In this document: one piece after another, positions 2,202-21,620 of the stretch | Layout of the letters: each line of letters starts with the position of its first letter | Numbering within the stretch: the stretch's first letter is position 1 | NCBI RefSeq assembly: GCF_041530365.1 | Contig: NZ_CP168034.1 | Span: forward strand, 1,860,001-1,924,000 | Direction: 5' to 3' | DNA: 64,000 nucleotides | DNA from: Capnocytophaga sp. ARDL2 | Lineage (GTDB): Bacteria; Bacteroidota; Bacteroidia; Flavobacteriales; Flavobacteriaceae | Translations under genes and position numbers: made by a program | Notes under the pieces: model-generated | Told to the model about the DNA's origin: nothing | Database searches by the model: none | The model's input: the letters and a program-made list of their open reading frames with translations, nothing else

Positions 2202-2558
2202 TTAAAATTCTAAAAACATTTTGTTATACGCTTTGATATCATCGATATTGTGTCTGTTTTCGGTATCTAAATACAAGTTCAACAAATAGTATAAACTTTC
2301 AACATTTGTAGATTCTGTATTTACCGTTTCCTCATCTTCTAAAGGCTCGTCCGACGGAATCGAAACCAAGAAATCATTGTTTGCCTCTAAATGCTCATAA
2401 GCCAAACGAATTGATTTTGTTACTGCTGGTTTTCCTTCCTCTAAAGCGTATTCTCTTAACTTTTGTAAATTTTCAACCAAATTCTCTGTCTGAATTCCGT
2501 TGGTTTCTACTCCGCTAATAATTTCCTTTACTAATTTTTGTGCGTTTGTATTTTCCAC
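2202..2558 (-). CDS. Hypothetical acidic cytoplasmic protein
   Basis: A 118-residue protein with no signal peptide or membrane segment. It is helical and strongly acidic, with a Glu/Asp/Thr-rich stretch around residues 70-90 (PLEDEETVNTEST). I do not recognise a domain. The short spacing to the DUF3817 gene suggests one transcript. Similar small acidic proteins are common and uncharacterised in Flavobacteriia. Function unknown. Confidence 0.75.
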   Translation of the reverse strand: MENTNAQKLVKEIISGVETNGIQTENLVENLQKLREYALEEGKPAVTKSIRLAYEHLEANNDFLVSIPSDEPLEDEETVNTESTNVESLYYLLNLYLDTENRHNIDDIKAYNKMFLEF

Positions 2559-2723
2559 GATTATTATTTATTTTTTGCAAAAGTACTATTTTTTCTGTAT
2601 ATTATAAAATGTATTGAGAATGTATTGTTGTAAAATGTATTACTGTATAATGCTTATTTGTTTACAGTCTTACATTTTTTCAATTTTACAGAATTGTGAT
2701 ATAATAAATAATTTCACTACTCA

Positions 2724-3866
2724 CTATCCCTTCGCAATTCCCCTTGAAATAACGATTTTTTGAATTTCCGATGTTCCCTCGTAAATTTGGGTAATTTTCG
2801 CATCACGCATCATACGTTCTACGTGGTATTCTCTTACATATCCGTTTCCACCATGGATTTGAACCGCTTCTGTAGTTACATCCATTGCGGTTTGTGAAGC
2901 AAATAATTTCGCCATTGCTCCCGAAATCGAAATATCTTGTCCTAAATCTTTTTCTGACGCTGCTTTGTGTACCAACATCCTCGCTGCCGAAATATTGGTT
3001 GCCATATCTGCCAACTTAAACGCAATTGCCTGATGATTGATAATTTCTGTTCCGAATGCTTTTCTTTCTTTGGCATATTTCAAAGACAACTCATACGCTC
3101 CTTGTGCAATTCCAAGAGCCTGAGAAGCAATTCCTATTCTTCCACCGTTTAAGATTGACATTGCAAAAGTAAATCCAAATCCGTCGTCTCCGATTCTGTT
3201 TTCTTTTGGTACTTTTACATCAGTAAACATCAACGAATGTGTATCCGATCCTCGCATTCCCATTTTTTGTTCTTTGGCTCCTAATACAAATCCGTCCCAA
3301 CCTTTTTCTACGATAAATGCGTTGATTCCTTTGTGTTTTTTTTCAATATCGGTTTGAGCAATAACAATAAAATAATCCGCTGTGCTTCCGTTGGTAATCC
3401 AGTTTTTTGTACCATTCAACAAATAGTAATCTCCCATATCTACTGCTGTGGTTTTTTGAGAAGTTGCATCCGAACCAGCCTCTGGCTCTGACAAACAAAA
3501 TGCTCCGATAGACTGTCCTGATGCCAATGGTACTAAATATTTTTGCTTTTGCTCTTCGGTTGCATATTTTTCCAATCCTGCACAAACCAATGAATTTTGT
3601 ACAGACATTACCACAGCTGACGATGCATCAACTTTTGCAATTTCCTCCATTGCCAATACATACGAAATACTGTCCAATCCAGCTCCTCCGTATTTTGGAT
3701 CTACCATCATTCCCAAAAATCCAAGTTCACCCATCTTTTTGATTTGCTCTGTTGGGAAAATATTATGTTCATCTCTTTCGATTACTCCTGGCAATAATTC
3801 TGTTTGTGCAAAATCTCTTGCCGCTTGTTGTATCATTAATTGTTCTTCTGTCAATTGAAAATTCAT
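2724..3866 (-). CDS. Acyl-CoA dehydrogenase
   Basis: An FAD flavoprotein that makes the alpha,beta double bond in acyl-CoA during fatty-acid or branched-chain acyl oxidation, passing electrons to an electron-transfer flavoprotein. The 380 residues are full family length. The signature FCLSEPEAGSDA lies near residue 125, NGTKNWITNG near 152, and the C-terminal IYEGTSEIQKI holds the catalytic glutamate (E of YEGT). The sequence resembles short/branched-chain and butyryl-CoA dehydrogenases, but the chain-length preference cannot be read from it. It stands alone, with 165 bases upstream of the next gene and about 160 bases of apparently empty DNA (3867-4024) behind its start. Confidence 0.93.
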   Translation of the reverse strand: MNFQLTEEQLMIQQAARDFAQTELLPGVIERDEHNIFPTEQIKKMGELGFLGMMVDPKYGGAGLDSISYVLAMEEIAKVDASSAVVMSVQNSLVCAGLEKYATEEQKQKYLVPLASGQSIGAFCLSEPEAGSDATSQKTTAVDMGDYYLLNGTKNWITNGSTADYFIVIAQTDIEKKHKGINAFIVEKGWDGFVLGAKEQKMGMRGSDTHSLMFTDVKVPKENRIGDDGFGFTFAMSILNGGRIGIASQALGIAQGAYELSLKYAKERKAFGTEIINHQAIAFKLADMATNISAARMLVHKAASEKDLGQDISISGAMAKLFASQTAMDVTTEAVQIHGGNGYVREYHVERMMRDAKITQIYEGTSEIQKIVISRGIAKG

Positions 3867-4024
3867 ATTTATATTTATTTATACAGGAAGTTTTCCCGCA
3901 TTTGGCGGAATAGGTAAGCGATAAGCTTGTTCCTGCGAGGTTATTATCTGTTCGGTGCTCTGTCCTTATTAATGTTAAAAAAAAATCTATGTGTCCTATG
4001 TTTCTACGTATTTAATATAAAAAT

Positions 4025-4699
4025 CTACAAAGAAATTCCTTCTCCTATTTCCAACAAAATCAATTCTTTTGATTTTTGAGAAAATAACTCTTTTGCTTTG
4101 TTTTTGTCTATTTTGATATATCCAAAAGTATCGTAATGATACCCCAAAACTTTATTCACTTGCAAGAAATCGGTCGCTATCAAAGCATCTTCTACATCCA
4201 TTGTAAAATTATCCCCAATAGGCAAAACAGCTAAATCCAATTTTGTACGCATAGGAATTAATTTCATATCCATTGTCAAGGCGGTATCTCCTGCAATGTA
4301 AATATTTTTATCTGCTTTAATCACAAATCCACCTGGCTGACCACCGTAAGTTCCGTCTGCAAAACTACTCGAATGCACTGAATTTGTGTAAGTTAATTTT
4401 CCAAAATCAAAATTCCAAGAACCACCGTGATTCATAGGATGGGTTTTCAACCGTTTGGCTTCGTAATATCCTGCAATTTCCGCATTGGAAACAATAACTG
4501 CACCCGTGCGTTTGGCAATCGCTTCTACATCCAACACATGATCTTGATGTGCATGTGTAATCAAAATATAATCAGCTGGAATTTCATCTATTTTTATGTT
4601 TTCAGCCAATGGATTTCCCGAAATAAATGGATCTACCACTATGTTTTTTCCTTTGATTTCCAATCCTAAAGCAGCGTGTCCGTAATAGATAATTTTCAT
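4025..4699 (-). CDS. UPF0173 metallo-beta-lactamase-fold hydrolase
   Basis: A 224-residue metal-dependent hydrolase of the UPF0173 (YtkL-like) family. The zinc site motif HAHQDH is at about residues 49-54 (THAHQDHVLDVE). Further metal ligands are likely the His of NSVHSSSFADG, the Asp of IAGDTAL and the His of LGYHYDTFGYI, the usual order for the fold. The substrate of this family is not established. It lies 3 bases downstream of menA, suggesting co-transcription with it; whether it takes part in menaquinone metabolism is unknown. Confidence 0.88.
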   Translation of the reverse strand: MKIIYYGHAALGLEIKGKNIVVDPFISGNPLAENIKIDEIPADYILITHAHQDHVLDVEAIAKRTGAVIVSNAEIAGYYEAKRLKTHPMNHGGSWNFDFGKLTYTNSVHSSSFADGTYGGQPGGFVIKADKNIYIAGDTALTMDMKLIPMRTKLDLAVLPIGDNFTMDVEDALIATDFLQVNKVLGYHYDTFGYIKIDKNKAKELFSQKSKELILLEIGEGISL

Positions 4700-4702
4700 T
4701 TT

Positions 4703-5604
4703 TTACAATATTTGTGTTATAAAATAGGCTAATGAAATAAAAAATGTCGTCATGGCTATTTTTTTCAATTCACTATCTAATTCTCTTGGAATTTGCGTGT
4801 TTTTTACCTTATCTATATGTTGAAAAAACGGAATAAATAGTAAAAACATTAAAAATTGCCATACTTTATTAAATGTCAATGCTCCGAATATGAAAAAACT
4901 GAACATTCCTGCAAATATAAGGCTATATTGATAAAGTTTTGCTTTTTCAAAGCCCATTTTTACAACCAAAGTGTTTTTGTTCATTTGAGCATCGTTTTCT
5001 ACATCACGCATATTGTTCATATTGAGTACAGCTGTACTAAACAATCCTAGCGAAGTTGCTGGTAAAAATAATAACCAATCTATTGTATGGCTGTACAGGT
5101 AATAAGTCGCGATTGTTCCTACCCAACCAAAAAACAAAAAAACAAATACATCGCCCAAACCTCTGTATCCGTAAGCAGAATTTCCAACAGTGTATTTGAT
5201 AGCTGCTCCTACACAAGAAATAGCTAATAATAGATAAAGTATCACTTTAAACAAATCTTCATAACCAAATGAATAATAAATAACTAAAACAGAACTAATC
5301 AAGGATAAAACACTAGTGATTATGATAGCGATTTTCATTTGCGAAGCCGAAATTTCTCCACTTTGTATTGCTCGTTTTGGCCAACTCTATGTTCGTTGTC
5401 CGTTCCTTTTTTAGCATCTCCATAATCGTTTGCATAGTTGGATACTACTTGAAAAAACAAAGTAGTTAGCAAACTTAAAAAGAAAATTGTCCAAAAATTT
5501 CCTTCCTTATTATAATCTGAATAAGCAGCCACTGTTCCTACAATAATTCCCGAAACAGAAAGCGGTAATGTTCGCAATCTCGCAGCTTTAAGCCATTTTT
5601 TCAT
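4703..5604 (-). CDS. menA: 1,4-dihydroxy-2-naphthoate polyprenyltransferase MenA (one-base deletion in this sequence)
   Basis: MenA attaches the polyprenyl tail to 1,4-dihydroxy-2-naphthoate in menaquinone synthesis at the inner membrane. The gene reads in two frames. The upstream part from ATG 5604 ends with the prenyl-diphosphate motif NYANDYGDAKKGTDNEHRVG. The downstream part, in the next frame, continues with RAIQSGEISASQMK and five to six membrane helices. Restoring one base near 5380-5381 (GG-CC should be GGNCC, giving V-G-P-K-R) yields a continuous protein of 300 residues, the usual length. The start at 5604 (MKKWLKAARLRTLPLS) is preferred over 5655. Either a sequencing error or a recent null mutation; being central to respiration, the former is more likely. 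Confidence 0.88.
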
Positions 5605-5651
5605 TTTTTGTTTTTTTATTAATTTTTTCGTAGATTTCTTTACCACAGAAA

Positions 5652-6766
5652 TCACACAAAACCAATCTCTCTTTCAATTTCTTCAATACTCGGTAAATCG
5701 GTTTCTAGTTCCTTTGGAATTTGTTGTTGCAACTGAAAAGTTGAAACGCTCAAAGGTTTTTTAATATCTTGGAACGCCCATTCTACAATAGTATTGTCTT
5801 TCGTTTTACAAATCAAAAGTCCGATAGTTAGATTATCGTCATCGTTTTTCAATAATTTATCCGTTGCCGTTACATAAAAATTCAATTTCCCTACAAATTT
5901 AGGCTCAAAATCTACCACTTTCAATTCTATGACCACATAACATTTCAGTCGGATATGATAAAAAAGCATATCCAAAAAATAGGATTTGTCCTCATTCATT
6001 TTCAGTTCTACTTGCTTTCCTACAAAGGCAAATCCTTTTCCCAATTCCAATAAAAACTTGGTAATAATCTCAGTAAGAGTATTTTATAATTGTTTTTCGT
6101 TATAACCTTTGGTAATAGTCAGAAAATCAAAATTATAGGGGTCTTTCAAAATTTCCTGTGCCAACTAACTTTGAATAGTAGGAAGCGTATTCTGAAAATT
6201 AGTAATCGGCTTGCCTTTGCTGTGATAAAGTTTACTTGCTTAATAATCTTCCAGCACACTTCTACTCCAATTTTCCTCAATGGTTTTTTCTACACAAAAC
6301 AAGACCTCTTCTACGGATTTACACTTAGAATAAATTTCAATATGATGCCTCCAAGGAATTTTTCCTAAGATTTATAGAAATTGATTACCAAGTTGCTAAC
6401 CATTTTCGATAGGTTCCAATTTTACACCTTCTTCAAATTCGTCAGCAAGTTGGTGACGAATTTCAAAATACTGATAAAAAAAAGATACCACCTTTTTATA
6501 TACTTTAAATTAGTAACAGAAAATCCTGCAAGATTTGGAAATTCAGTTTTTAAATCCAAACTTAGTTGATTGAAAAAAACTTTCCCCCAATGTTGTGCTG
6601 TTTTTATTGAAACAACATCTCTTCCCAAGCTCCAATAAAAATCCAGCATTTCTCTATTGCCCCTATACTAAGCCTTTATTTGACTCTGAATCAATTGGGT
6701 TTTGATGTCCTGTAACCAATCTCGGTATTCATTGTCTTTTTTATTATTATCGTTGAAAATAAGCAT
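5652..6766 (-). pseudogene. Degraded YhcG/DUF1016 (PDDEXK) nuclease-family gene
   Basis: Minus-strand homology runs the length of a YhcG-type protein but is broken many times. The start at 6766 gives the DUF1016 N-terminal domain (NREMLDFYWSLGRDV, HWGKVFFNQLS, FSVTNLKYIKRWY), interrupted by TAG at 6670-6668. A frame slip occurs in a run of eight A/T near 6476-6483. The next frame carries KIPWRHHIEIYSKCKSVEE and DPYNFDFLTITKGYNE with about five further in-frame stops. The last 132 residues (GKGFAFVGKQVEL, YVVIELKVVDFEPKFVGKLN, GLLICKTKDN) are the PDDEXK nuclease domain. Intact members are linked to restriction-modification or defence contexts. Clearly not expressed as one protein. Confidence 0.9.
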
Positions 6767-15412: not shown

Positions 15413-15444
15413 CGAAAGTACGGAATTTTATTTTAATTACCAAA
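15413..15444 (-). promoter_or_regulatory. Probable promoter of the E1 gene
   Basis: Minus-strand TACTTTCG (15420-15413) is one base off the TAnnTTTG -7 consensus, with TTTG (15444-15441) 20 bases upstream. The ATG at 15370 follows about 40 bases later. Confidence 0.5.
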
Positions 15445-15549
15445 TAATACTTTTAATTATTTATTTTTCAACAACTTAAAAAAAAAAATAACACGATACT
15501 CTTTACACTTAAAAACAATCTAATGTATAACCTAAAAACCGCTTAACAT

Positions 15550-16005
15550 ATGAAAGAGTTAATCAAAATAACAGAGCAAAACGGCATTCAAGCCGTGTCA
15601 GCAAAAGAGTTATACGAAGTTTTGGAGTATAATAAAGCGGTTTGGTCTCGTTGGTATCAGAAAAACATAGAAAATAATGAGTTTTATTTTGAAAACATTG
15701 ATTATCAAACTCTCACCTTAATGGTGAACGGTAACGAAACCAAAGATTTTGACCTAACTATTGACTTTTCCAAGAAGTTAGGAATGAAAGCCAATTCAGC
15801 AAAGGGCGAAGAAGTGAGAGAGTACTTTTTAGAGTGTGAACGCATCGCCAAAAACCCAGTCGCCCACCTCTCAAAAATAGACCTTGCTCAAATGGTTATC
15901 GAAAGAGAAAAAGAGCGTTTGCAAATTCAGAACCAATTACAACAGCAAAAACTCCAAAAACAAGCCCCCAAAGGTAGCCTATTTTTCGTGGTCGTATTTC
16001 TTTAA
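15550..16005 (+). CDS. Phage AntA/AntB-type antirepressor, C-terminally truncated
   Basis: A 151-residue protein whose first about 100 residues are an AntA/AntB antirepressor domain: NGIQAVSAKELYEVLEYNKA, FSRWYQKNI-like WSRWYQKNIENNEFYFENID, and KKLGMKANSAKGEEVREYFLECE. In temperate phages these proteins counteract the repressor. The usual C-terminal domain is missing; the chain runs through a Gln/Lys coil (ERLQIQNQLQQQKLQKQ) and ends in an unrelated hydrophobic tail GSLFFVVVFL. The tail arises where the frame crosses into the fragment at about 15960-16168, so a deletion joined two genes. It is the only phage-regulatory gene in the remnant. Confidence 0.8.
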   Translation: MKELIKITEQNGIQAVSAKELYEVLEYNKAVWSRWYQKNIENNEFYFENIDYQTLTLMVNGNETKDFDLTIDFSKKLGMKANSAKGEEVREYFLECERIAKNPVAHLSKIDLAQMVIEREKERLQIQNQLQQQKLQKQAPKGSLFFVVVFL

Positions 16006-16168
16006 CCTATCCGATATTTATCACGATTTAAATACTAACCAACCCAAATACTCCATCATAGAATGGCACGATGAAAGCACAGAGCAAAGTATAAAAGACG
16101 AAGACTCTAAATGGATTAATTACAAATCGTGGACTATGGGAAAGAGATATGAAAAGAAAAAGCCCTAA
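15960..16168 (+). pseudogene. 3' fragment of an unidentified gene fused behind the antirepressor
   Basis: In the frame one base ahead of the antirepressor, a coding-like stretch reads PKVAYFSWSYFFNLSDIYHD and continues to KWINYKSWTMGKRYEKKKP, ending at 16168 inside the terminator stem. It has no start of its own and shares no recognisable domain. It is best read as the surviving end of another mobile-element gene after a deletion. Function unknown. Confidence 0.45.
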
Positions 16169-16180
16169 AATTTTAGGGCT
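16161..16180. terminator. Bidirectional intrinsic terminator
   Basis: Perfect palindrome (10-bp arms, AGCCCTAAAA) flanked by A run on the left and T run on the right. It lies between the convergent antirepressor fragment (stop 16168) and the polyvalent gene (stop 16195). Confidence 0.85.
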
Positions 16181-16194
16181 TTTTTTAATACCTC

Positions 16195-19100
16195 TTACGG
16201 ACATCTCGCTTCCATAACCAAATCATTCGCAAAAAGTACCGTACGCAATTGCACAGAATTCAGCCCACGCAACACATTAGCATTTTGGACAATTTCAGCC
16301 TTAGACAATCGCACCATCGGAACTTTCTTACCTTGTAACAAATTATCCGAAATATTATTCGCCACATCAAGCAACGATGCAGACTGCCATTTCGCATCAG
16401 ACCACCTTTCCAATTTCGTCCCCTTACTCAAAGTATTGCGTACCCATTGCCAAATATGTTTCGCCAATCGGTGCAAAACAGACTTAGACTGCTCCGCCTG
16501 ATATTTACGCTCCCCAAGATTACCAATCTCTGTCGCCAAAATCTCCTCTGCAATAGCTTCATCAGATTTCAAATGAATATAATTAGGATTATTACGCATA
16601 AGCTCCATAGCTTTTTTATCACGCAGTACCGTAGCAATAGCTTTGTTATATAGAGCCTTATTACCATTTCGCAACGAATGTACCCACAAATGCCCAAACT
16701 CATGTATCGCAGTATTCGCATTTAGTCCAGCATCCGCATTCAAATAAATATTGTTACCACGAGCCATACCATACACAGTACCATTGTTGGTACGCAACTC
16801 TTGTAAATTGTTATTCTGTTTTGGATTTTCGAAATTATTAATTATATTTGCAGAGCGATTGGCAAGTTGGGTAGCGTCAGCGGAATTGAACTGCTGTCTG
16901 CCTAACCAGTCAGTCGCTTTTTCTTTATTGATATATACCGCTTCATTATTCGTAATGGCTCTAACTATCTGTGTGTTATTTCTTGGATAAACACTTCTAA
17001 TACTATTAACTTGAATACCTGTCCTCCTTGAGTTAAGTTCTAAAGCAACAACAAAGTTTTTACCCTCGTGGACAAGTTCCGTAAAAATCACTTTTCTACC
17101 TACCATTGTACTACTATCAAAAACCGCAATAGGATTTTGAATAGCTTGTGGTAAACTTTCCATTTCGGATAAATCAAAAGGATGATTTTCTTGCTCTGAT
17201 TTTTCTTTCAGTTTATTTGCTTTTAATTCAATAGGCAAATTCGGAATACCAGCACTTTGCAACAAAGTATTTGGGCGTCCTAATTGGAAGATATGACCAC
17301 TCGGCAAACTACCCTCTCGCATCTGTGCCAATTCCTCATTAAATGTAGCATTTACTCTTTTCTGCTCCGATAGTTCGCTATCTGTATGATACCTAATATC
17401 ATCGCTATCCTCAGAAAATGTACCTACATTTGCAGTGGCAGATTTTATTTGATTGGGGTGAAGAGCGACAATTGTAGAAAAATCTATTGCTTTTTCTTGT
17501 TCCATAGAAATTTTATCTACATCTTTTTCTTCTAAAAAAACACCATCATAACCTCTTTTTTTAAGGAATTCTACAAAAAAAACACCTATTTCATCGTCTA
17601 AATATCCCCAAGCACTTTCACTTGGAACTAACAAACTAAAATCATTATTGAAAACTTGTATTCCGTTGGTTTCGGCTTCTTCTAGAAACTTCTCAAATAA
17701 TTGACTTATATTTTCATTAATCCCTTTTAAATGTAAATTTTGACTAAAATTAAAAGGGTTCTTTATGTTAAGAAATGTACGCATTATCCTTTCCTTACTA
17801 CCATAAGGTCTTAATTCGTATTTCTTACTAAACTCAAAATCAGGAGAAAAGAAAAAACCATTTCTTTTTACTTTTTTATTCCCATAAAGAAATGAGCTTA
17901 CATATGCTTCTCTTTGTTCAAATTCATAAAAATCTTCACTTCTATAACCATGATACACCACCATAGGTTCTCCGTTCTCATCAACTACTTTTGAGGAATT
18001 TTCCTTAGCAGATTTTATTTGTTCAATTTCTTTTTGTACCTTTGTGAGGTCAGAGTCGTTTCGGACGTTGAGCCTCGGGGTTTCTTTTGAAGCATCTAAG
18101 GCATCTGACTTTTTCTTTTGCCAACTGGTAACTACAAAGTTTTTATCCTTTCCCTTTTCAATAGTAGCAACTACATAAGTACCATTTACTCGTTTAGTTA
18201 TCTTTATCGCTTTATTACCTTGTTTGTCGTCAAAGTCTTCACTTAACTCCATTGTATCAAAGTTATTGATAACATAAGGTAGAACCACTATATCTTCAGC
18301 AGTCATATCTATTTGACCTCGCATCGCTTCATTCTGTCCGTGTTTTTTATTGATATGCCTAATGCTGTCATCAGTAATTACAACAGAGTTTATCTCGTGT
18401 TCCAATAACTCACTAAATCTTTTTGCAGTCTTTTCAGACGGCGAAAAAATATATTTACTTTTAGAGTTTTTATCCCTAAGAGCATTTTCCGCCATTGCTA
18501 TCAAACTCGCACTCTCCCAATCCCCAAACCAATCTTTAAAGGCTTCGGTACGCACCGTTACCCATTGCTCCTCGTTTAGATTGGTAGGTTTGCCATTAGG
18601 TGCTTTCATATACGTACCATTGGCTTTCGCTTGGGCTACAATCCGCTCTTTCTCCAAACGCAAACTATCAGCAATCATACGTTCCACCTGTTGTTGATTT
18701 ACAATATGCACATTCGCATTCGGAACAGATTTTAACAATCGTTTTACAATCTTATCCAAAGACTTGCGTGTAATTTCTTGCATCTTTCCCTGCACAGAGT
18801 GAAAATCAAACAAACTCGTTTGATTCATACCAGCTCGTATTACATCTCGTTTCTTTTGTCTATGCTCTACAATCTTCTGTTCCAAACTACGAACCTGATT
18901 TTGCAACAACCCTATCTTCTCATCAGACCTCCTTTTCAATTCTGTATATGACGCACTATTCGGGTCTATAAATCCCTCCATAGCAGGATTGGTAAAACGC
19001 TCTCGCAAAGTATCAATCTCCTTTTCAACCTTCTTTTTATCTTGGGTCAATTCGTTCAAAGTGTTGTCCCACTCACGCTCCAAATTCGTCTTGTCTTTTA

Positions 19101-21213
19101 CTCTCGACAAGTTCAAAGGCTGATTTGAATCGTAATCTAATGTCTCAACAATCGCCCTTACCTTTTCAATAAAATCTTGCTTATTAGTAAATCGTTTAGA
19201 CAAATCTCTATTCATCAAAAAGTCAAAAACCTCCTTTTCGTGGGCATCAGTGATTTTATCCTTAAATGTTTTGCGTATTTCTCCAATCCAACCTGCAAAT
19301 TTCTCCATATCTTGCAAACCGTCGGCATTTTGCGTACCATAAAACCTTTGCAAAGTCTGATAAACAAATCCTTTCGGATTTAAATATGACAAATTTTCAA
19401 CAAAACGCCTATTCTTACCCTCTCTATTCAAAAACTCTTGAACCTCCTCAAGAGTAGCACCACCTTCTATTTTGTTTCGCAAAGTAGTACCCCTTTCAAG
19501 TGGTGTCTCCATAGAGCGGTTTGCATTAGCCTCTTCCTTAGCAAATTTTATTGCTTGAGACTCCGTAAAATCATTAGACCTATCCACGATTTTTACATCA
19601 TTCCTACCAGCATTTTTAGCACCATAATACCTGTGATGCCCACTCAATACATAATATTTACCACTTTTAGGGTCTTTCCAAATATGAATAGGGTCTTGAT
19701 ATGCATCGTTAAAATTTTCAGAAATATTTCTCAATACAGCCTCATTTAGCTGTTTCCTACCTTGAAATCTATTCTCGTCTGTATGTATATCACTCAAAGA
19801 CATACGCTTTACAGACAAATCTTCAACAGCCTTAGAGTTAGTTTCAGTTGTCGTAGTATCAGAGTTGTTTTGTATATTTGTATCGAAAGAATTTCCGTGC
19901 AAATCAGCAGATTGGTTTCCTTGTATTGATGGCACGGCATCAAGTGGCAAGGTCGCCTTGTTAATGTAAGCCAATCTGCCCTCTTTCATTATTCTTTCAT
20001 CTTGCCTATTAAACAAATCACCCAACAAAGCGTCAAGTTCATTATTCACCTCTTGCTGTGAAACATTTTCTATAGTCCAAGAGTTGTTGAGCGTAGTCAA
20101 AACACCAGCCTCTTGCATTCTCCTATCAACCTCCTCATCTATTTTTTTGTTCAAATCATCGTTAGTAACAAGCTCTTTATTTTGACCGCTGAGCGTAGCT
20201 GAAGTATCAGAATTATTTTGTATATTTGTATTAGAAATGGATTTTTGAGGAGTAGTAGTTCCATTTTCCAACTCTAAATCGGAAGCGACAGCCCTACTTC
20301 CATTAGTGCTATCAGGGGTTACGAGGGTGGTAGCAGATTTAGAGTTATGAGAATCTTCAAGAAGAGAGTCACCTTCTTGCGTATTTTGCGAAATATCAGT
20401 GTTCATCGTCTTGGTATTTAACGATTCTCTTTTTTCATAAGCAGTTAGCAACCACTTTTTATTTTCCCCATAATATTCCAAACTTATTGCAGCTTCGTGG
20501 GTCTTACTCTCTAATCTTATTCTATTTTCCGTTCTTGACACAACAACCATATCATCAAGTATATCTTGTAAGTTATTCAATACCTCAGGATGATACTTTG
20601 CAATTTTCGCAAGACCAAAGCCGTTACTTTTTCCTGTTCCCTCTTTACCCCATACCAAATCTATATCTCCTACCTCTTTATGATTTAAAGCAGATAAAGC
20701 TTCCCCCTCTTTCTTGTGCAACAAAAAATCAATCGCTTGTTTTACCTTACCCTTAAATTGGTCGTAGATATTCCCAAAAGCACCTTTACCAACAGGCTCT
20801 ATACTATCAAAATCTACCTCAGTTTCCCCTTGTCCCAAAGTCTCATTACCTTGCTTTATCGTCAAAGCATTATCCGCATACTTATCTTTCCATAAATTAT
20901 TGCCCTGCCAATGCTTGTACATCTCCACCAACATTCCACCTTTAAAATAACCGTCCTCAAAAAACTCACGCACCAAATTCAAATCCCTCAAACCATTATA
21001 CCCCATAGGAGAAAGTTCATCAAACCAAGCATTTGTCTCATCAATCGCTCGTTCCTGATTTTCCACCTCATACAATCTATTCAACCTATCCAAAGCCATC
21101 ATCGTTTCCTCGTTATGCTCACCCCTTCTCATTCTATCAATATGAGTTCTTATACCTGTACGATAATCGGTTTCCGCATTATTTTCAACTTCCGAATTCC
21201 CATTTTCAGGCAC
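16195..21213 (-). CDS. Giant polyvalent-type protein (nuclease, ParB, ART and metallopeptidase modules), 5' end lost
   Basis: A 1672-residue protein of the polyvalent class, which phages and conjugative elements deploy with their DNA. Modules by inspection: barnase/colicin E5-like nuclease about 137-262 (GDIDLVWGK, GFGLAKI, HPEVLNNLQDIL); ParB-like fold 468-570 (LSGHHRYYGAKNAG); long coiled coil 705-795; conserved linker TEAFKDWFGDWE (889-900); second RelE/EndoU-type nuclease about 905-1035; ADP-ribosyltransferase-like 1084-1265 (VVYHGY, FFSPDFEFSKKY, GYDGVF); MuF-C-like nuclease about 1290-1435 (VFDSSTMVGRKVIF); zinc peptidase with HEFGH at 1504-1508 and acidic partner DEAIAEE. Linkers repeat NIQNNSDT. 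The GTG at 21213 is only nominal: the frame is open to 21240, then meets the IS982 end. Expression is doubtful. Confidence 0.8.
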   Translation of the reverse strand: MPENGNSEVENNAETDYRTGIRTHIDRMRRGEHNEETMMALDRLNRLYEVENQERAIDETNAWFDELSPMGYNGLRDLNLVREFFEDGYFKGGMLVEMYKHWQGNNLWKDKYADNALTIKQGNETLGQGETEVDFDSIEPVGKGAFGNIYDQFKGKVKQAIDFLLHKKEGEALSALNHKEVGDIDLVWGKEGTGKSNGFGLAKIAKYHPEVLNNLQDILDDMVVVSRTENRIRLESKTHEAAISLEYYGENKKWLLTAYEKRESLNTKTMNTDISQNTQEGDSLLEDSHNSKSATTLVTPDSTNGSRAVASDLELENGTTTPQKSISNTNIQNNSDTSATLSGQNKELVTNDDLNKKIDEEVDRRMQEAGVLTTLNNSWTIENVSQQEVNNELDALLGDLFNRQDERIMKEGRLAYINKATLPLDAVPSIQGNQSADLHGNSFDTNIQNNSDTTTTETNSKAVEDLSVKRMSLSDIHTDENRFQGRKQLNEAVLRNISENFNDAYQDPIHIWKDPKSGKYYVLSGHHRYYGAKNAGRNDVKIVDRSNDFTESQAIKFAKEEANANRSMETPLERGTTLRNKIEGGATLEEVQEFLNREGKNRRFVENLSYLNPKGFVYQTLQRFYGTQNADGLQDMEKFAGWIGEIRKTFKDKITDAHEKEVFDFLMNRDLSKRFTNKQDFIEKVRAIVETLDYDSNQPLNLSRVKDKTNLEREWDNTLNELTQDKKKVEKEIDTLRERFTNPAMEGFIDPNSASYTELKRRSDEKIGLLQNQVRSLEQKIVEHRQKKRDVIRAGMNQTSLFDFHSVQGKMQEITRKSLDKIVKRLLKSVPNANVHIVNQQQVERMIADSLRLEKERIVAQAKANGTYMKAPNGKPTNLNEEQWVTVRTEAFKDWFGDWESASLIAMAENALRDKNSKSKYIFSPSEKTAKRFSELLEHEINSVVITDDSIRHINKKHGQNEAMRGQIDMTAEDIVVLPYVINNFDTMELSEDFDDKQGNKAIKITKRVNGTYVVATIEKGKDKNFVVTSWQKKKSDALDASKETPRLNVRNDSDLTKVQKEIEQIKSAKENSSKVVDENGEPMVVYHGYRSEDFYEFEQREAYVSSFLYGNKKVKRNGFFFSPDFEFSKKYELRPYGSKERIMRTFLNIKNPFNFSQNLHLKGINENISQLFEKFLEEAETNGIQVFNNDFSLLVPSESAWGYLDDEIGVFFVEFLKKRGYDGVFLEEKDVDKISMEQEKAIDFSTIVALHPNQIKSATANVGTFSEDSDDIRYHTDSELSEQKRVNATFNEELAQMREGSLPSGHIFQLGRPNTLLQSAGIPNLPIELKANKLKEKSEQENHPFDLSEMESLPQAIQNPIAVFDSSTMVGRKVIFTELVHEGKNFVVALELNSRRTGIQVNSIRSVYPRNNTQIVRAITNNEAVYINKEKATDWLGRQQFNSADATQLANRSANIINNFENPKQNNNLQELRTNNGTVYGMARGNNIYLNADAGLNANTAIHEFGHLWVHSLRNGNKALYNKAIATVLRDKKAMELMRNNPNYIHLKSDEAIAEEILATEIGNLGERKYQAEQSKSVLHRLAKHIWQWVRNTLSKGTKLERWSDAKWQSASLLDVANNISDNLLQGKKVPMVRLSKAEIVQNANVLRGLNSVQLRTVLFANDLVMEARCP

Positions 21214-21242
21214 TTGCCTCTTGCCGAATTCAAAATCATTTT

Positions 21243-21620
21243 ACCCGTTGTTCATTTTAAATTATACTTGCTTTAATTTTATTTATTTCCTTTTTTAATA
21301 CAAATTTGTTAATGTATTGAATTAAGGTTAAAGCAGTTATTTTACTGATAATTCGTGTTTTAAAACCGTTGAATGATTTTGCATAATTCCTTTTAATCAT
21401 AAATTGATCACATAACCGCGAAATCGAAGATTCGACGAAGTCAAAATAATGTTTCGATTCTTTTCCTCTTTTTCTTGAATAAGTAAAACTGAAGTTTGTA
21501 ATCTTTTTGATTCAGTCTCTTTGAGGTATTTAACTGAATAGTAGCAGTGTTAAACAAATCTAATTGATATTGTGACGATATATAACCTCTGTCACCTATC
21601 AGACTTTTATAGCCAATTTT
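21243..21620 (-). mobile_element. IS982-family transposase relic (3' part with one terminal repeat)
   Basis: Minus-strand reading gives the C-terminal third of an IS982 transposase: YKSLIGDRGYISSQYQLDL, KRLNQKDYKLQFYLFKKKRK, RIETLF, then, after an extra stretch of about 20 bases with TGA, LCDQFMIKRNYAKSFNGFKT and ITALTLIQYINKFVLKK, ending just before 21256. The outer end reads ACCCGTTGTTCA from 21243 on the plus strand, the kind of ACC-initial terminus this family has. The N-terminal two thirds and the other terminus are missing; the relic begins directly after the FUSC stop at 21621. Not functional. Confidence 0.8.

Follow-up and report, generated by a model that had tools for sequence, protein, structure and literature searches.

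An open reading frame of 1672 codons in Capnocytophaga sp. ARDL2 is what remains, stranded and without its front, of a gene for a phage multi-enzyme protein whose kind has been described before. It lies in the analysed stretch of 64,000 nucleotides (referred to as the window), and its product belongs to the polyvalent proteins as defined by Iyer et al. 2017 (PMC5512222). Very probably, the 5′ side of a phage polyvalent gene was cut by an IS982-family element, and after loss of the remaining phage genes the 3′ gene part was left stranded between host genes. We infer that the ORF is inactive or only fortuitously expressed, and activity of the truncated copy is unlikely.

The ORF (16195..21213, minus strand) begins with a GTG at 21213, a mechanical choice of start codon inside the former gene, and has its stop at 16195. 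The frame originally predicted at 16195..21240 is real, 21240 being its stop-to-stop end, nine codons beyond the GTG-started ORF. Sequence comparison shows that a larger gene lost its 5′ front and that only its 3′ portion is left in the ORF, because an IS982 end lies at 21243, a match to a second gene of the genome (P0121) starts at 21242, and the coding sequence of P0121 continues further upstream. The native start and upstream region are absent, and the right-end remnant of an IS982-family element (21243..21603, unstranded) adjoins the open frame at 21242/21243 and contributes one base to the upstream stop codon by which the frame is closed. This 361-bp remnant matches at least 32 other places of the 2.5-Mb genome in full or in part (34 rows when the remnant and the P0121 segment are counted too, from the scoring of 40 of 80 candidates). 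For the family assignment, the transposase of an apparently whole IS copy (NF033520, IS982 family) was used and the end sequences were compared.

P0121 is a second polyvalent gene of the same genome, encoding 1786 amino acids. Both genes have 332 bp in common (20911..21242, minus strand) with 95.8% identity, which stops abruptly on both sides, and they also share the TNIQN linker. Upstream of the common segment, P0121 continues with an LPD13 domain; it differs from the window gene in that LPD13 and LPD3 were found in it, and none of the six modules of the window protein. Its neighbours encode a terminase (phrog_6681), a virion structural protein (phrog_13704) and GroES (phrog_13932), all within a phage remnant at G000:C1:2049601-2066000. 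Since the sister gene lies in this phage remnant, the window gene was evidently acquired from such an element. Beside the phage remnant, at G000:C1:2065156-2070422, a tandem amplification with an exact spacing of 2194 bp was observed, containing three copies of an IS982 transposase ORF and two of a 194-aa ORF, which we take to be ArdA-like.

The direct neighbours of the ORF are the IS remnant and an antirepressor of AntA/AntB type (151 aa; 15550..16005, plus strand), which is apparently cut short; neither is a virion gene. A perfect, terminator-like 14-nt inverted repeat (16157..16184, unstranded) separates the antirepressor and polyvalent genes; further out lie a gene resembling 2-oxoacid dehydrogenase E1 and one of FUSC type. 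An exact empty site was not found in the 40 genomes compared, five of which, including the own one, have the FUSC gene. The gene upstream of E1 was of one kind in seven of nine inspected loci and different in the other two. Positions 15426-15514 of the window match G000:C1:668209-668294 with 88% identity and may be an old attachment region; a short ORF beside the match resembles the N-terminus of a phage integrase, and it had no NCBIfam match. The isolation of the gene as the mark of a distinct system was not supported: it has an ordinary explanation, as the gene was cut at the IS remnant and stranded.

Several domains of disparate activity are united in the remaining chain. Four of them exceeded the Pfam gathering cut-off, namely PBECR1 (residues 176-263, E 6e-9), PBECR3 (residues 927-1036, E 3e-12), ART-PolyVal (E 3e-20) and MuF_C (PF18819; E 5e-27, 94.4 bits versus a cut-off of 27.6), MuF-C itself being a PBECR-type domain according to PMC5512222. 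The region with the conserved PBECR1 residues H208 and T257, based on Pfam, conservation and domain models, is found at 20398..20811, the PBECR3 domain (residues 909-1040; H953, H958 and T1029 conserved) at 18094..18489, the ART-PolyVal domain (residues 1078-1266; H1088 and D1223 conserved) at 17416..17982 and the MuF_C domain (residues 1336-1434; H1344 conserved) at 16912..17208, all on the minus strand. The His and the C-terminal Thr/Ser of PBECR domains, assigned as active-site residues by conservation, are present in PBECR1 (H208/T257) and PBECR3 (H953, H958/T1029). From the ART H-Y-D triad, H1088 and D1223 are conserved at 91%, and the Tyr was not seen as an 80% conserved column. The zincin-like domain (residues 1451-1591; 16441..16863, minus strand) with HEFGH and E1557 remained below the Pfam cut-off (Peptidase_M78, E 0.0064 for the domain piece). 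Its residues H1504, E1505, H1508 and E1557 are conserved at 98-100% in 51 non-redundant rows, the window's included, and HEXXH plus the downstream Glu was invariant in 12 rows.

The ParB module (residues 462-600; 19414..19830, minus strand) is of ParB_N/Noc/KorB type. ParB_N matched below the Pfam cut-off (E 1.7e-4 for the ParB piece alone), as did TIGR00180 (E 2e-7); the assignment is backed by phrog_1033 'ParB-like partition protein' (E 3e-12), and G525, H526 and R528 were invariant in seven non-redundant rows. With Foldseek, the seven best rows for the ParB model were Noc, KorB and ParB (E 0.011-0.20, none below 0.001); they probably rest on the helices after ParB_N, since the predicted structure is of low confidence over ParB_N itself. 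The motifs LSGHHRYYGA, VVYHGY, GYDGVF and HEFGH each occur once in the protein, and the linker NIQNNSDT occurs twice, at 330 and 446. The linker is also repeated as DNA (29 nt, 93%), with TNIQN copies at 20203..20231 and 19855..19883 on the minus strand. The domain types of the original prediction were borne out (PBECR1, ParB, PBECR3, ART-PolyVal and MuF_C, plus a zincin-like domain bearing HEFGH; ParB_N and M78 below cut-off), and so were its motifs and linker repeat. The conserved catalytic residues of the PBECR and zincin domains are present, as are the ART His and Asp.

Polyvalent proteins as described by Iyer et al. (PMC5512222) likewise combine PBECR, ART-PolyVal, MuF_C and zincin domains in one chain, have mosaic architectures and have phage relatives near virion genes. 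Unlike those described there, the window copy is N-terminally truncated, and its ParB fits ParB_N/Noc/KorB-type models and not DdrB-ParB; for DdrB-ParB (PF18763), no match was obtained at E≤1 with the whole protein or E≤5 with the piece, HMMER filters being on. Phage P1 DdrB and the phage N4 virion RNA polymerase are large virion-associated proteins with a zincin, as in this family, and their zincin was proposed to process the chain (PMC5512222); their other domains differ from those of the window protein. The sequence link of the window zincin to a virion polymerase is weak, the best PDB match of the zincin profile being a phage virion RNA polymerase with a non-significant E of 0.078.

A whole-protein search gave 781 matches among 7988 scored proteins. 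For comparison, 234 proteins including the window's were collected from two lists of at most the best 120 each, and domain models were built from the window protein's own domains. That the order is wholly unusual was not supported: its backbone ParB-box-ART-MuF_C-MPT (the box is described below) recurs in three of the other 233 collected proteins, although all six domain kinds together were found only in the window protein among the 234. Some part of the protein was matched by 28 of 50,697 annotated phage records. Among these, Bordetella phage BPP-1 matched PBECR1 (53%), and Salisaeta icosahedral phage 1 gp43, annotated as 'structural protein' in one record and as 'DNA methyltransferase' in the RefSeq copy, matched the ParB region (33.5%). 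Matches at the box only were found in a crAssphage 'RNAP associated protein fused to zincin protease' (73.8%), in the 3633-aa gp68 of Bacteroides phage BF1-TP2 (72.3%), which has an antirepressor gene near gp68, and in uncultured phage cr271_1 (67.4%). The neighbourhood of P0121 with terminase, virion and GroES genes, the AntA neighbour, the ParB segment of gp43 and the box in crAssphage and BF1-TP2 gp68 point to a phage origin. The polyvalent type and phage relatedness claimed beforehand were correct.

Giant polyvalent genes were also observed elsewhere. A Bacteroides MAG (L047:2403-14338) has a CRISPR-like array with repeats of 29 nt (2403-6432), followed at a distance of 77 bp by a polyvalent gene for 2609 aa; the ORFs ahead of the array are presumably Cas4 and Cas1. 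In a Bacteroidales MAG (L051:4970-15040), no phage genes are visible in the stretch around a 3356-aa polyvalent gene, flanked by what we take to be ordinary host genes.

No stop interrupts the 1672 remaining codons, and most residues expected at the active sites are still present, so that either decay is recent or the remnant was kept, which counts against the preferred explanation. The truncated ORF might accordingly have been captured and kept by the host, e.g. for anti-phage defence, with a promoter located within the IS end or close to it; host capture was proposed by Iyer et al. (PMC5512222), and the genes of L051 and L047 stand without visible phage genes in their stretches. We consider this improbable, as the N-terminal part was lost at the IS junction, only one other match (35%, ParB region) was found among 101 genomes of the genus, the own one included, and a ParB-box profile matched none of 299 genomes of the family except the own one. 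That the gene belongs to a conjugative element and not to a phage is very unlikely: conjugative elements also carry such proteins according to Iyer et al. (PMC5512222), and ParB-region matches of 29-30% lie on four Persicobacter replicons, but the gene is directly flanked by an antirepressor gene and the IS remnant, and P0121 has terminase and virion genes around it. It is equally unlikely that the present form is a complete and working toxin, secreted or injected, as suggested earlier, since the ORF start lies inside a larger gene and the adjoining genes are not delivery genes, even though the expected nuclease-domain residues and two of three ART residues are present.

Aside from the fate of this copy, a close relative gives insight into how such proteins are assembled. 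P0002 is a public protein of 1341 aa from an 8.5-kb contig, with its own predicted start at window residue 354. It is 99% identical to the window protein over residues 354-900 (544 of 547) and 1072-1672 (595 of 601), and since the C-terminus is the same in both, that of the window ORF looks natural. Residues 901-1071 of the window protein (171 aa with PBECR3; 18001..18513, minus strand) are replaced in P0002 by 193 unrelated residues, for which the precomputed Pfam list gives LPD3 and no PBECR3. This cassette begins where the box ends and reaches up to the conserved beginning of the ART domain. The pair shows, as read from the protein comparison, a PBECR3 cassette swapped whole for LPD3. ART cores also appear exchanged in many pairs of the collected set, many of them named Prevotella pallens, with SSKVVDENGEP..VYHGT constant at the start and QIKSATDN.G.F constant at the end.

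The box itself is an unannotated segment of about 52 residues (849-900; 18514..18669, minus strand) with the pattern ...KAPNGKPTNL...FKDWFGDWE. It had no Pfam match and no meaningful PDB match, and a text search of open-licence papers gave no relevant literature match. In the predicted structure it forms a small, mostly helical unit (pLDDT 69-94). With the box as sole query, 913 of 927 candidate proteins, picked by shared words, matched significantly. Its HMM was found in 98 of the best 120 of the 781 whole-protein relatives and in all 113 proteins that entered the collection of 234 through the box search itself, with up to four copies per protein. In many relatives, it stands directly ahead of ART, LPD3, PBECR3 or kinase modules. 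Pfam was applied to 58 post-box segments, i.e. the window's and 57 from other loci, and found ART-PolyVal in 31, LPD3 in 19, PBECR3 in two (one being the window) and AAA_33 in one, a single segment possibly matching several families. The loci had been fetched by six peptide patterns including FKDWFGDW, so the box is present by selection, while what follows it is not. The 57 came from 67 box rows, ten of which were left out as short, near-duplicate or second copies (L014 second, L016, L020, L021 twice, L025, L030, L031 second, L041 and L058 first). At L068:10055-10564, the box is followed by a segment with the P-loop GIPGSGKST, judged from its sequence probably the AAA_33/zeta-toxin-like member.

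Several analyses addressed the role of the box. A general recombination hot spot was rejected, as three of 381 clusters of abrupt high-identity block ends and one of 364 clusters of block starts lay within 15 aa of a box end, versus 1.5% expected by length (234 proteins), i.e. no enrichment. In 52 of 210 box-bearing proteins, the domain model showed no zincin (some sequences being partial), which argues against a strict link of box and zincin. For internal cassette replacements, the left border was at the box in nine of 204 event clusters versus about 2.8 expected by length, and the right border at the ART start in two of 204. With left borders clustered alone, two of 74 classes were at the box (1.0 expected), and eight of 74 when up to 40 residues after the box were allowed (1.9 expected). 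The events are not independent, as the set is dominated by near relatives, and for the box as a general exchange border these sequence-based tests are negative to weakly positive.

In polymorphic toxins, constant motifs precede variable toxin ends. By analogy, the box may tentatively be seen as an unrecognised small folded module, a fixed joint at which exchangeable effector cassettes begin in the polyvalent proteins of phages of Bacteroidota and others, a crAssphage among them; we consider this possible, with the odds somewhat against it. Such a joint might serve docking, packaging or processing by the zincin, with ART, LPD3, PBECR3 and kinase cassettes swapped whole behind it.

The intact protein would be packaged in the virion, enter the cell with the DNA and act early in infection, as suggested by PMC5512222. 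After entry, PBECR-type domains would act on RNA, the ParB module would bind or clamp DNA, the ART domain would modify host proteins, and these or the chain itself would be cut by the zincin domain. The modules are exchangeable, as seen in the segment behind the box, which was swapped whole between the window protein and P0002. The earlier idea of a toxin delivered with element DNA may fit the intact family, considering PMC5512222 and the 'structural protein' gp43, but the window copy lost its N-terminal part and virion-gene neighbours. As a locus it is a phage fossil, of value for the window/P0002 pair, 99% alike outside one whole cassette: together with the conserved, unnamed box at the cassette border, the pair makes the reassortment of polyvalent proteins testable, and also makes zincin cutting at module borders directly testable.
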